Origin: Erinaceus europaeus
Taxonomy: Eukaryota; Chordata; Mammalia; Eulipotyphla; Erinaceidae
Length of the DNA stretch: 64,000 nt
Direction of reading: 5' to 3'
Assembly (NCBI RefSeq): GCF_950295315.1
Contig: NC_080170.1
Span: 93,170,054-93,234,053, forward strand
Positions 43,997 through 63,676 of this stretch are shown here, piece by piece (positions within the stretch are counted from its first letter, which is position 1; each line of letters begins with the position of its first letter). The translations under genes were made by a program, and so were the position numbers. The notes under the pieces are model-generated. The model did not search any database. It was not told the DNA's origin and was given only the letters and a program-made list of their open reading frames with translations.

Positions 43997-44914
43997 TTAC
44001 CAAACTTTAAACATACACATAAACATAGTCATTAATACACGAGGAGAGAAACCTTTGTTACGAAGACATGTCATTTTAAACACGAATTTAAATCTATATT
44101 GTCTTAGTTGTTGGGGGGGGGGTTCACCATCCGGAGGTGGCTTCCCGCGCAGCTCCACTTCTAGGAATTGCAGGTTGCGATCTCTGCACAAATCTCTGCG
44201 TACTCCAGCTTGTCTGTCTTCAGACCGGACCGGCGGCTGGAGATCTCGTGTGCCCAGTTTTGGCAGGGAGCCCGGGGGTCCGGGAGGCCCGGGATGGTTC
44301 CAGAATTCATAGAAAGAGGGCAGGCAGGCCATCTTTGTAGAAGGCGTGAGCCTAGGTGCCCAGGGGTGGCGGCCATGATAGAACGCCGCGGCCCTGCCCC
44401 ATGGCCCTGCCATGTCTGCTCCCCTGTTCGCAGTGGCCGAGCAGCGTGGAGGGATCACGCGTCCAGTGCCCTGCACCACGCGGTGGAGAGCCGGCTCCTG
44501 TGGGCTGGCCTCAGGCTCCAGCATGTTGGCATCGGGCTCCAGCATGTTGGCCTCAGGCTCCAGCATGTTGGCATCGGGCTCCAGCATGTTGGCATCGGGC
44601 TCTAGCGTGCTGGCATCGGGCTCTTGCATGGTGGCGTAGGCCTCCTGCGGGCTGCGGGGCTGCGGGGTTGCTGGCGCGGTGCGCGGGGTTGTCTGGGCGC
44701 AGCCGGCTGGCTGGCTGTTTAACCAGGTGGAAACGGCAGCTCCGCGCCTCGCCTCCCGCCCGCTGGCTCTTCCCGCTGGCTGTTCTGAGTTCGCCCGAGC
44801 GAGTGGAAACCACAGAGTGGTCCAGAGATAAATGTTCCAGAAACAGCAAAACAGTCTCGTGAAGAAAGAGCAGAGGCCTTTGGAGATCTCTTCACAAGCA
44901 GAAGAGAAGGCCAT
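43997..44914 (-). CDS. 305-codon ORF of unknown function inside the LTR element
   Basis: I do not recognise this protein. The ATG is the first long-frame start after a ~50-nt leader downstream of the primer-binding site. Residues 17-39 form a hydrophobic, Cys/Trp/Phe-rich stretch that could be a membrane segment. Residues 97-139 are six seven-residue repeats of the LEPDANM type. The middle and end are Pro/Gly/Arg-rich, with no matrix, capsid or zinc-knuckle signature. The region is GC-rich, which favours chance open frames on both strands, so it may be a noncoding leader that happens to be open. If translated, it would occupy the position of gag. Confidence 0.4.
   Translation of the reverse strand: MAFSSACEEISKGLCSFFTRLFCCFWNIYLWTTLWFPLARANSEQPAGRASGREARRGAAVSTWLNSQPAGCAQTTPRTAPATPQPRSPQEAYATMQEPDASTLEPDANMLEPDANMLEPEANMLEPDANMLEPEASPQEPALHRVVQGTGRVIPPRCSATANRGADMAGPWGRAAAFYHGRHPWAPRLTPSTKMACLPSFYEFWNHPGPPGPPGSLPKLGTRDLQPPVRSEDRQAGVRRDLCRDRNLQFLEVELRGKPPPDGEPPPQQLRQYRFKFVFKMTCLRNKGFSPRVLMTMFMCMFKVW
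44507..44632. repeat. Six 21-bp tandem repeats
   Basis: Units of the type 'ggcatcgggctccagcatgtt' occur at 44507, 44528, 44549, 44570, 44591 and 44612. They keep the reading frame of the 305-codon ORF (seven residues each). The last two units are the most diverged. Confidence 0.93.
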
Positions 44915-44964
44915 CGTGCATAGGTAGCCAAATTGTCTTTACTTATCTGAGAGATGCGCAGGTC

Positions 44965-51705: not shown

Positions 51706-51777
51706 ACTGAGACTCAGACCCTAGAGTAGGGCACATTCACTCAAGTAGGAAGGCCTGGAAGCTTCTTCATAGTCTGG

Positions 51778-53676
51778 GTGCCGGTAGCCAACCCCCTCCC
51801 GTCTCCCATCCTCCCGTATCTCCAAACTCAGTGGCCAGTCACCTAACTCAAGTTGGACATGCTAAGATCGACCCAGTCTGGAAAAGAGAAATTTCCCATG
51901 AGTGGTCATCCCACTTCCGTTTATCTTGTCCATCTCCAAAACTCTCTCCCTTTACACTGTCTGAACTGGAAGACGCTTTGAAGAAGGTTAAACTGGGAAT
52001 GGCTGCTGGCTATGATAACATCACCCCAGAACTCATTCTTAACTTGGGCCCCACAGCAAAGAAGTGGCTCACTTCATTCCTGTCCCACATCTTGGAATCT
52101 GAATCTATGCCCAAAATTTGGCGTCGTGCGAAGATAATAGCAGTTTTGAAACCAAAGAAAGACCCAACACTGGCTGCCAGCTATAGACCAATTTCTCTCC
52201 TCTCCGTGTGTTACAAACTCCTTGAGAGGCTGCTTCTGTCACGTATTTCTCCTCTTACAGAGAAATTCCTATCACCCGCCCAAGTTGGTTTCTGCCCAGG
52301 AAGATCTACCTGCGAACAAGCCCTGGCCCTCTCAACTTACATTGAAAATGGATTCCAGAAGAATTTAAAGACAGGTGCTGTCTTTGTTGATCTCACAGCA
52401 GCCTATGACATGGTCTGGCACCGTGGTCTCCTAGTCAAGACCTCAAGATGCCTGCCTCCATGGGTGGCCAACACTATATCGTTTCTTCTCCAAAACAGAA
52501 GATTCCAGGTGCATCTGGGTGACAAGTCTAGCAGATGGAGACTTGTCTCAAGTGGCCTCCCCCAGGGCTCTGTTCTGGCTCCTACGCTATTTAATATTTA
52601 CATCAATGACCTCCCAGAAACTTCTTCAAGGAAGTTCATCTACGCTGATGACATCTGCTGTGCAACTCAGGCATCCAAGTTCGACATCCTCGAGGAAACA
52701 CTCACGAAAGACATGTCTCTGATATCTGATTACTGTAAAAAATGGCGACTAATCCCTAGCACTGCAAAAACGGTATCAGCTGTTTTCCATCTACACCATG
52801 CCTCGGCCTCGCGTGAGCTTAATGTGCAGCTTGACGATAAGAGAATCCAGCATGAAGCCCAGCCAGTCTATCTTGGCGTTACTCTCGATCGCACTCTGTC
52901 ATTTCACAAACATCTCATAAAAACTGCAGCAAAGGTGGGCGCGAGGAATAACATCATTGCAAGACTGGCCAGCTCCTCATGGGGCGCTAGCGCTTCCACA
53001 CTACAATCATCATCTCTGGCATTATGCTATTCCACTGCAGAATACTGTGCCCCAGTATGGTTCCGTAGCCCCCATGTCCACTTGGTCGATTTCAAATTAT
53101 ATTCCTCCATGAGGATAATTTCTGGAACCATCCGTTCCACCCCGGTTCCATGGCTGCCAGTTCTTAGCAACATGGCCCCACCAGATATTCATCGGGATGC
53201 AGCATCATCTAAGTTCATTTCCCACGTCTATGCTCGACCAGACCTGCCAATATACGCAGATATCTTTGCCCACCCTGTCCAACGCTTGACGTCTCGTCAC
53301 CCAATCTGGTCCCCTACGTCTACACTGAACTTCTCTGTTCCAGACTCTTGGAAACAGAGTTGGCAGTCAGCTGAGGTAAAGAACAAACACCTCATCACAG
53401 ACCCCTGCAAGCGTCAACCTGGCTTTGACCTAGCACGTTATGATTGGGCTCTCCTCAATCGCTATCGAACAGGCCATGGCCGGTGCGCCGCTATGTTCCA
53501 TCGCTGGGGAGCCAGAGACAACCCGAACTGCCCCTGCGGCTACAGACAGACTCTGACCCACATAGTCAACGACTGCCACCTCTTCAGATTCAAAGGAGGT
53601 CTCGAAACTTTACATCAGGCTCAACCTGACGCTGTTGACTGGCTACGGAAGAAGGGCAAATGCTAGAAGAAGAAGA
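51778..53676 (+). mobile_element. Non-LTR retrotransposon of Jockey/CR1-like type, 5'-truncated
   Basis: About 1.9 kb of GC-richer sequence with abrupt composition change against AT-rich flanks. The coding frame runs to a stop at 53664-53666, followed only by a (AAG)n tail ('aagaagaaga'), so the 3'UTR is essentially absent. The upstream endonuclease is missing, consistent with 5' truncation during insertion. The 5' boundary is uncertain (frame open from 51711; element-like Pro/Ser codons from about 51780). I could not find a TSD. The family is inferred from domain layout and motifs, not from a search. Confidence 0.85.
51831..53666 (+). CDS. Reverse transcriptase protein (non-LTR, Jockey/CR1-like), uninterrupted
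   Basis: 611 codons without a stop; the frame is open back to 51711. The codon at 51831 is GTG; the first in-frame ATG is at about 51999, so this is the open part of a longer ORF2. Counting from 51831: SYRPISLL at 118-125; VDLTAAYD with catalytic Asp187; GLPQGSVLAPTLFNIYIND at 242-260; YADD at 271-274 with Asp273 and Asp274; a thumb-like region to about 430; and a C-terminal Cys/His cluster C567-x-C569-x7-H577-x4-C582, typical of several non-LTR clades outside L1. All three catalytic aspartates are present. The family copies element RNA into DNA at a nicked target. L1 ORF2 is clearly different (compare the fragments at 6790 and 60427). Confidence 0.9.
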   Translation: MASHLTQVGHAKIDPVWKREISHEWSSHFRLSCPSPKLSPFTLSELEDALKKVKLGMAAGYDNITPELILNLGPTAKKWLTSFLSHILESESMPKIWRRAKIIAVLKPKKDPTLAASYRPISLLSVCYKLLERLLLSRISPLTEKFLSPAQVGFCPGRSTCEQALALSTYIENGFQKNLKTGAVFVDLTAAYDMVWHRGLLVKTSRCLPPWVANTISFLLQNRRFQVHLGDKSSRWRLVSSGLPQGSVLAPTLFNIYINDLPETSSRKFIYADDICCATQASKFDILEETLTKDMSLISDYCKKWRLIPSTAKTVSAVFHLHHASASRELNVQLDDKRIQHEAQPVYLGVTLDRTLSFHKHLIKTAAKVGARNNIIARLASSSWGASASTLQSSSLALCYSTAEYCAPVWFRSPHVHLVDFKLYSSMRIISGTIRSTPVPWLPVLSNMAPPDIHRDAASSKFISHVYARPDLPIYADIFAHPVQRLTSRHPIWSPTSTLNFSVPDSWKQSWQSAEVKNKHLITDPCKRQPGFDLARYDWALLNRYRTGHGRCAAMFHRWGARDNPNCPCGYRQTLTHIVNDCHLFRFKGGLETLHQAQPDAVDWLRKKGKC

Positions 53677-53727
53677 CTGATCCAAATGTTAGGTTGTTCA
53701 TATATCTGACAAGGATTAGATAAAATA

Positions 53728-53939
53728 TTGGGCTGCTGGGAAAGTCATGACACATTTTTGCTCAGAAAAAAGGGCGAGGTTAGATAGCATGGTGGTTATG
53801 CAAAAAGACTCATGCCTGAGGCTCTGAAGTCCCAGGTTCAATTTCTCTCACTACCATAAACTATAAACCATAAACCAGAGGTGAGAAGTGCTCTGGTTAA
53901 AAAAAAAAAAAAAGCATCATGACTTTTCCAACAACTCAA
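53728..53939. mobile_element. Mariner-type short inverted-repeat element with SINE-D inside
   Basis: The left end TTGGGCTGCTGGGAAAGTCA and the right end (minus strand) TTGAGTTGTTGGAAAAGTCA match 19 of 23 positions over the full terminal repeat, all differences being transitions. TA dinucleotides flank both ends (53726-53727 and 53940-53941), as Tc1/mariner insertion requires. Without the SINE-D (about 53770-53915) the element is under 80 bp, so it is a MITE-like deletion derivative with no transposase. Confidence 0.75.
53770..53915 (+). mobile_element. SINE-D, sense, in the mariner-type element
   Basis: 'gatagcatggtggttatgc', 'cccaggttcaatttctctc', 'gaagtgctctggttaaa', A15 tail. Contains a short 'ataaaccataaaccag' duplication. 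Confidence 0.9.
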
Positions 53940-54012
53940 TATATAAAGAGTCAATTATCAGTAAGAGAATATGGATGTCTCAAGAGAAGCCACTATAGCT
54001 ATACAGAGCAGT

Positions 54013-60511: not shown

Positions 60512-61123
60512 ACATCAAATTGAAAAGCTTCTGCACAGCCAAAGAAACTATCACACAAACAAAGAGACTTCTCACAGAATGGGAGAAGATCTTCACGTGC
60601 CAGACATCAAGACAAGAGACTAATCACCAAAATATACAAAAAGCTCAGCAAACTTAGTAACAAAAAAGCAAATGACCCCACCCAAAAATAGACAGAGGAT
60701 ATGAACAAAACATTCACTCCAGAAGAGATTCAAAAGGCTAACAAACACATGAAAAATTGCTCCAGATCACTGATTGTCAGAAAAATGCAAATAACAACAA
60801 CATTGAGATACCACCTAACCCCTATGAGAATGGCATACATTAAAAAGAACAACAGCAACAAATGCTGGAGAGGCTGTGGAGACAGAGGAACATTTCTGTA
60901 CTGCTTGTGGGAATGTAAATTGGTCCAGCCTCTCTGGAGAGCAGTCTGGAGAACTTTCACAAGCCTAGACATGGACCTTCCATATGATCCAGTAATCTCT
61001 CTGCTAGGGATATACCCCAAGGACTCCATAATACCCAAACAAAAAGAAATATGTACACCTATGTTCATAGCAGCACAATTCATAACAGCTAAAACCTGGA
61101 AGCAATCCAGGTGCCAACAATAG
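60427..61123 (+). pseudogene. L1 ORF2 C-terminal fragment, frameshifted
   Basis: Peptides: [80 protein letters not shown] stop near 60657 and a frameshift before TDEW break the frame. Non-functional. Confidence 0.9.
60508..60955 (+). repeat. 448-bp direct repeat, copy 1
   Basis: It is identical, as far as I can read, to 63025-63472 (offset 2517). It is part of L1 ORF2. Confidence 0.92.
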
Positions 61124-63024: not shown

Positions 63025-63472
63025 GACTACATCAAATTGAAAAGCTTCTGCACAGCCAAAGAAACTATCACACAAACAAAGAGACTTCTCACAGAATGGG
63101 AGAAGATCTTCACGTGCCAGACATCAAGACAAGAGACTAATCACCAAAATATACAAAAAGCTCAGCAAACTTAGTAACAAAAAAGCAAATGACCCCACCC
63201 AAAAATAGACAGAGGATATGAACAAAACATTCACTCCAGAAGAGATTCAAAAGGCTAACAAACACATGAAAAATTGCTCCAGATCACTGATTGTCAGAAA
63301 AATGCAAATAACAACAACATTGAGATACCACCTAACCCCTATGAGAATGGCATACATTAAAAAGAACAACAGCAACAAATGCTGGAGAGGCTGTGGAGAC
63401 AGAGGAACATTTCTGTACTGCTTGTGGGAATGTAAATTGGTCCAGCCTCTCTGGAGAGCAGTCTGGAGAACT
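63025..63472 (+). repeat. 448-bp direct repeat, copy 2 (L1 ORF2)
   Basis: Identical to 60508-60955, with the same L1 ORF2 peptides. It ends abruptly at an LTR fragment. Confidence 0.92.
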
Positions 63473-63544
63473 GTGTACCCCTTTGCTCTGGACGTCCGCT
63501 CTCTTCTCCGCGGTGCAGCCCGACACCAGACCACCTCAACAACA
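63472..63544 (+). mobile_element. LTR 3' fragment, related to the LTR at 1515-1812
   Basis: 'tgtgtacccctttgctctgg' and the end 'caacaaca' parallel 'tgtgttccctctttgctcc' and 'caacaaca' in the solo LTR. Only the last ~73 bp (R/U5-like) is present. Confidence 0.7.
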
Positions 63545-63676
63545 CTATCCAACAACAACAGCAATAACAATAATAATAACAACAATAAACAACAAGGGCA
63601 ACAAAACGGGGGTGGGGGAGAATCCACTGGAAGTGGTGGAATCCTGCAAATACAGGAACTCTGGTGGACTTGAAAA
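63545..63676 (+). mobile_element. SINE-A 3' part
   Basis: It starts at 'ctatccaacaacaacagc' and runs through the tail and a diverged 3' block. Head and body are missing. Confidence 0.85.

Follow-up and report, generated by a model that had tools for sequence, protein, structure and literature searches.

Evolutionary origin of an open reverse transcriptase frame in a hedgehog

A stretch of 64,000 nucleotides from Erinaceus europaeus (contig NC_080170.1, positions 93,170,054 to 93,234,053; hereafter the window) holds a long, unbroken reverse transcriptase frame. The locus raises the question of what this frame belongs to and why it is still open. A sequence-only reading of the window had taken it for an intact Jockey/CR1-like element, an unusual survivor in a mammal, and had offered recent activity, horizontal transfer or selection on the protein as the reason. 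Our analysis indicates, with a probability of about 0.93, that positions 51738-53675 are a copy, 5′-truncated and dead on arrival, of an APE-type non-LTR retrotransposon that is young and multicopy in Erinaceus and belongs to the Vingi clade, almost certainly to Vingi-1_EE. To our knowledge, a young non-L1 LINE family in hedgehogs is unusual among mammals.

The open frame and its domains

By the ORF listing of the window, the frame runs from stop to stop over 51711-53666 and codes for 651 amino acids, in agreement with the length of about 1.95 kb first given for it. It is by far the longest frame in the window. The next longest, of only 313 amino acids, has no Pfam match at E ≤ 0.1, so the 651-residue frame is not a product of chance. 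This second frame lies at 44000-44938 on the minus strand, in the GC-richest part of the window. Pfam recognizes RVT_1 at residues 148-391 of the 651-residue frame (E = 3.3e-32), and the best matches in the PDB include R2 and L1 proteins, placing the frame with the non-LTR reverse transcriptases. All three catalytic aspartates named earlier (D187, D273 and D274, counted from 51831) are in place, in the motifs FVDLTAAY and YADD. The C-terminal CxC...H...C cluster reported with them is present as NCPCG...THIVNDC at 53529-53576, and relatives P0063 and P0082 carry the motif as well. Directly 3′ of the stop codon in the window copy is AAGAAGAAG, the bare AAG-triplet tail that had also been described. 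The 611-residue product proposed for the frame begins at a GTG codon with nothing supporting it as a start.

The first bases of the frame are not part of the element. Alignment starts at 51738 in 57 of the 59 other genomic copies and at 51735 (L041) and 51739 (L019) in the remaining two; the 27 bases of the frame before 51738 (51711-51737) are therefore host flank, and the element does not begin at 51711 as had been assumed. A 60-base query ending at 51737 matches nothing but itself among 60 loci, and no inverted piece of the element was found there. The observed/expected ratio of CpG is 0.51 in the frame versus 0.14 and 0.19 in its two flanks. The coordinates of the features are collected in Table 1.

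Table 1. Features of the Vingi-type copy, in positions of the window.
Feature	Position	Strand	Basis
5′-truncated Vingi-type LINE copy (3′ part of the single ORF, and tail)	51738..53675	+	57/59 copies align from 51738; TAG(AAG)n 3′ end in 60/60
Host flank in frame with the element ORF by chance, not element	51711..51737	+	Sequence not common to other copies
Remaining open frame, 642 codons and TAG, without endonuclease domain	51738..53666	+	Frame listing, P0009 alignment, N-terminal query search
Reverse transcriptase domain RVT_1, residues 148-391 of the 651-residue frame	52152..52883	+	Pfam, E = 3.3e-32
Catalytic Asp, FVDL motif	52389..52391	+	Alignment to relatives
Catalytic Asp-Asp, YADD	52647..52652	+	Alignment to relatives
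C-terminal CxC...H...C cluster	53529..53576	+	Sequence; motif also in P0063 and P0082
AAG-triplet tail abutting the stop codon, no 3′ untranslated stretch	53667..53675	+	Identical arrangement in 60/60 copies

The window copy lacks the 5′ part of the element

Eight full-length relatives that we scanned are 965-1072 amino acids long and have an endonuclease at the N terminus. Aligned to one relative of 1003 residues (P0009), the window copy begins only at about residue 360. We searched the window for the endonuclease part with 24 N-terminal queries and did not find it: the best matches were loose ones with E = 0.01, located at 0.6-1.0 kb, and in the region 49.5-51.8 kb nothing scored better than E = 2.7. 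The N-terminal 370 residues of P0009 are matched, in part or whole, at 55 of 60 loci, with the window copy among the five without a match.

Of the 60 copies, 21 extend to the same 5′ end, which lies about 1,117 bases before the first base of the frame (51711) and gives a full element of about 3.08 kb. The remaining 39 are shorter at the 5′ side, a few of them by no more than 60 bases. The window copy thus lacks about 1.14 kb at its 5′ end, endonuclease part included, and is not the intact element it was taken for. Four frames of 995 amino acids are found among the scored copies, three with one internal stop and one without. In a domain scan, two long natural copies (L048 and L029) had both endonuclease and reverse transcriptase, one of the two endonuclease models falling under the cut-off in L029. 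At the level of the family, an AP-type endonuclease is therefore encoded in the same ORF as the reverse transcriptase. No RNase H was matched at E ≤ 1 in the window frame, L048, L029, P0001 or the eight full-length relatives. The full-length element consists of a brief 5′ leader, a single ORF of about 995 codons that encodes endonuclease, reverse transcriptase and the C-terminal CxC...H...C, the stop codon and a few AAG triplets.

Copies in the Erinaceus genome

The sequence-only reading had called for a count of genomic copies and their divergence. Out of 71,868 first-look candidates in the 2.72-Gb genome, 68 copies were scored, all matching across nearly the whole query; the 67 others are 93-95% identical to the window copy in protein. 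Copy statistics refer to 60 of these 68, picked by protein score, which biases their openness upward. Fifty-seven of the 60 are on contigs of at least 45 Mb and three on contigs of 36-96 kb. Every one of the 60 ends in TAG and (AAG)n, mostly with two to four triplets and with one in L030 and L060, and the sequence beyond the tail is visibly different from copy to copy. The bare AAG tail is the normal 3′ end of this hedgehog element family.

LINEs copied by target-primed reverse transcription are recognized by a shared 3′ end, 5′ truncation at varying points and target-site duplications. We tested 45 of the 60 copies for duplications, the 15 left out being mostly those with an unclear 5′ boundary. 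Among mismatched flank pairs (n = 300), the median score was 5, 95% of pairs scored no more than 7, and the highest score was 9. A score of at least 8 was found in 27 of the 45, a few of these flank matches sitting some bases off the element ends; the other 18 had no score above 7. For the window copy the match is just 4-5 bases, within chance, and its duplication may have been lost or the insertion may have occurred without one. Target-primed reverse transcription is the likely mode of copying here: a protein encoded by the element would nick DNA and prime on the RNA 3′ end. Synthesis, which often halts short of the 5′ end, would have left the window copy without the endonuclease part.

Some truncation points coincide. 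L001, L021 and L041, which have different flanks, have 5′ ends that agree to about one base (relative position 27-28), and truncation points are also common to within a base in L036 and L050 and in L018 and L056. Such coincidences may mark a site at which the reverse transcriptase stalls.

Relatives of the hedgehog element

The window frame is matched by 1,334 proteins, and our comparisons use the best 120 of these. One (P0001, on a contig of 2,072 bases) is 95% identical to the window copy and is probably another hedgehog copy. The 119 other relatives among the best 120 of 1,334 are 43-61% identical. Named organisms among them are Phlebotomus papatasi (a sand fly) and Uroleucon formosanum (an aphid), both with uncharacterised proteins. 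A 35-row tree held the window copy and relatives, two of which are known by organism; the stem leading to the window copy and P0001 is 0.55 changes per site long. P0001 aside, the best 120 of 1,334 matches do not exceed 61% identity, and no close donor was found among them. No relative was found in viral and prokaryote collections, in a search that reaches close relatives only.

Probable assignment to Vingi

Like the hedgehog element, L1 is a LINE of the APE type that is copied by target priming, with 5′ truncation to varying extents. L1 membership was rejected because both close reverse transcriptase similarity and a poly-A tail are missing: L1 ORF2p chains in the PDB score just 43.7-45 bits against the window frame, below R2 at 50 bits, and the tail is (AAG)n in 60/60 copies whereas L1 has poly-A. 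An element of about 3.08 kb with a 995-codon frame would also leave no room for a first ORF. The earlier recognition of a non-L1 LINE in this genome was correct.

Ingi elements share APE and reverse transcriptase with the hedgehog element, and the title of the 2011 work calls Vingi Ingi-related. The Ingi clade carries an RNase H domain, in contrast to the hedgehog element, in which a search for this domain at E ≤ 1 gave nothing. Kojima, Kapitonov and Jurka (2011, Mol Biol Evol 28:17-20) reportedly defined Vingi as a sister clade of Ingi without RNase H. They are also said to have described nonautonomous Vingi derivatives, to have suggested horizontal transfer and to have found no Vingi in the other mammals they examined. 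Vingi is also treated in other papers. One reports Vingi in hedgehogs and lists X12_LINE as a trace of Vingi in the human genome (PMC5753468). Another, in the passages concerned, calls hedgehog Vingi a likely horizontal transfer and gives 311 copies of Vingi-1N3_EE under 1% divergence in Erinaceus europaeus (PMC3183009). In a passage of a third, one pre-amniote Vingi protein fossil is counted in human, which makes an old vertical presence in vertebrates possible (PMC9004415). Our data neither show nor exclude an origin by horizontal transfer, as proposed earlier for hedgehog Vingi.

Vingi-1_EE matches the element in its hedgehog host, in forming a young multicopy family, in having APE and reverse transcriptase in one ORF without RNase H, and in its compact size. 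It differs from the window copy, which is 5′-truncated and without endonuclease, and the likeness rests on descriptions of the family. The name is very probable and rests on host, architecture and the papers citing the 2011 work rather than on a direct sequence match. There is a slim chance that this is a different, undescribed hedgehog LINE of the I/Ingi/Jockey group that merely resembles Vingi, given that Vingi was compared by description only and that the named relatives are uncharacterised insect proteins (Phlebotomus, Uroleucon). Such a second young family would, however, have to have escaped Repbase, and the host genus, APE and reverse transcriptase without RNase H, compact size and recent expansion all fit the descriptions of Vingi in Erinaceus given above. 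Vingi is our best identification.

Age of the copies and selection on the frame

Mean pairwise K2P distance among the 60 copies is 0.035, and 0.019 without the 300 CpG-affected columns of 1956. With Erinaceus copies 3.5% apart (1.9% off CpG columns), the element has expanded recently in hedgehogs, as the sequence-only reading had supposed of the family. Mammalian substitution rates are 2-4e-9 per site per year; from half of 1.9% and this rate, the sampled copies are very roughly 2-5 million years old. The window copy is on average 3.75% from the other copies, its nearest copy being 3.1% away.

Could the frame instead be open because selection keeps the protein, as in a domesticated host gene? 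The 642 open element codons and the retained catalytic residues would suit this proposal, but the other copies behave in the same way. No in-frame stop is present in the region in 31 of the 60 copies, one in 24, two in four and three in one. Youth alone is thus enough for openness, and the window copy is not the rare survivor it had seemed. Pooled private non-CpG changes comprise 236 amino-acid, 141 silent and 14 stop changes, where 264.9, 109.0 and 17.0 are expected, so there is no visible purging of stops. The ratio of amino-acid to silent changes is 0.69 of expectation; this mild deficit could reflect constraint on source copies, the choice of copies by protein score, or both.

The window copy itself has decayed. 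It differs from the commonest base at 46 positions, 37 of them C>T or G>A; by its total number of differences it is 55th of the 60 copies. CpG decay affects 26 of 88 sites, and no sampled copy is higher. Of the changes that it has alone or shares with a single other copy, 10 of 11 replace an amino acid. Numbered in the 651-residue frame and with conservation counted over the 119 listed relatives, near-invariant residues are changed by T234M (T in 118/119), R494H (R in 118/119) and R195C (R in 115/119), and likewise by I488M (I in 115/119) and A192V (A in 113/119). P0001 departs at other invariant residues (R178C and N414H), so the window copy is not exceptional in this respect. We reject domestication, which is very improbable given the stop-free share of 31/60, the near-neutral number of stops and the changes at invariant residues; selection on the protein is not needed to account for the frame. 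The window copy, like the others, is unconstrained, and its frame is still open because the insertion is young rather than because its protein is maintained.

Contaminating arthropod DNA or an assembly chimera, which the occurrence of relatives in insects and on many environmental contigs and an element GC content above that of the flanks might suggest, is a negligible prospect and was rejected, as the 68 scored copies include 57 of 60 fetched on contigs of at least 45 Mb, each time with a different flank, the excess of C>T and G>A is that of methylated mammalian DNA, and one SINE family lies on both sides of the element; contamination had been judged less likely before.

Other features of the window and loci

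A pair of imperfect 35-base inverted repeats lies at 53725-53942; the two are 80% complementary, stand 148 bases apart and surround an A-tailed SINE at 53772-53913. The arrangement resembles a small element of the mariner type with a SINE nested in it. The frames at 60692-61120 and 63209-63670 begin with 50 identical residues and, by motif, are presumably broken L1 ORF2 pieces; the second has no Pfam match. Scans of the whole window gave 0 Rfam matches and 0 tRNA matches.

In one further locus, L061 (C95:53909140-53910480, on an 82-Mb contig), COX1 and COX2 can be read as open frames with the vertebrate mitochondrial code; the locus is probably a recent nuclear insert of mitochondrial DNA. Its COX2 is 98% identical to Erinaceus europaeus and E. 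amurensis, 95% to E. concolor, 90-91% to Mesechinus, Paraechinus and Hemiechinus, and 87-88% to Atelerix, which supports a hedgehog host down to the genus Erinaceus.

Discussion

The Vingi family in hedgehogs was already known, and the window adds one ordinary truncated copy to it. The family is numerous and fairly recent in hedgehogs and is very probably the one described in 2011. An unbroken frame is ordinary for a young repeat, and the window copy is no longer mobile. More tentatively, Vingi might still be mobile in living Erinaceus, with the RNA signal by which its reverse transcriptase recognizes the template having to lie inside the protein-coding sequence, a proposal we consider rather doubtful; the signal is placed there because the stop codon abuts the AAG tail and leaves no 3′ untranslated stretch.

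With 31 of 60 sampled copies equally open, an open frame in a recently amplified repeat tells little about selection. Hedgehog Vingi is a useful case for studying the arrival of a second autonomous retrotransposon in a mammal, a point made in 2011.
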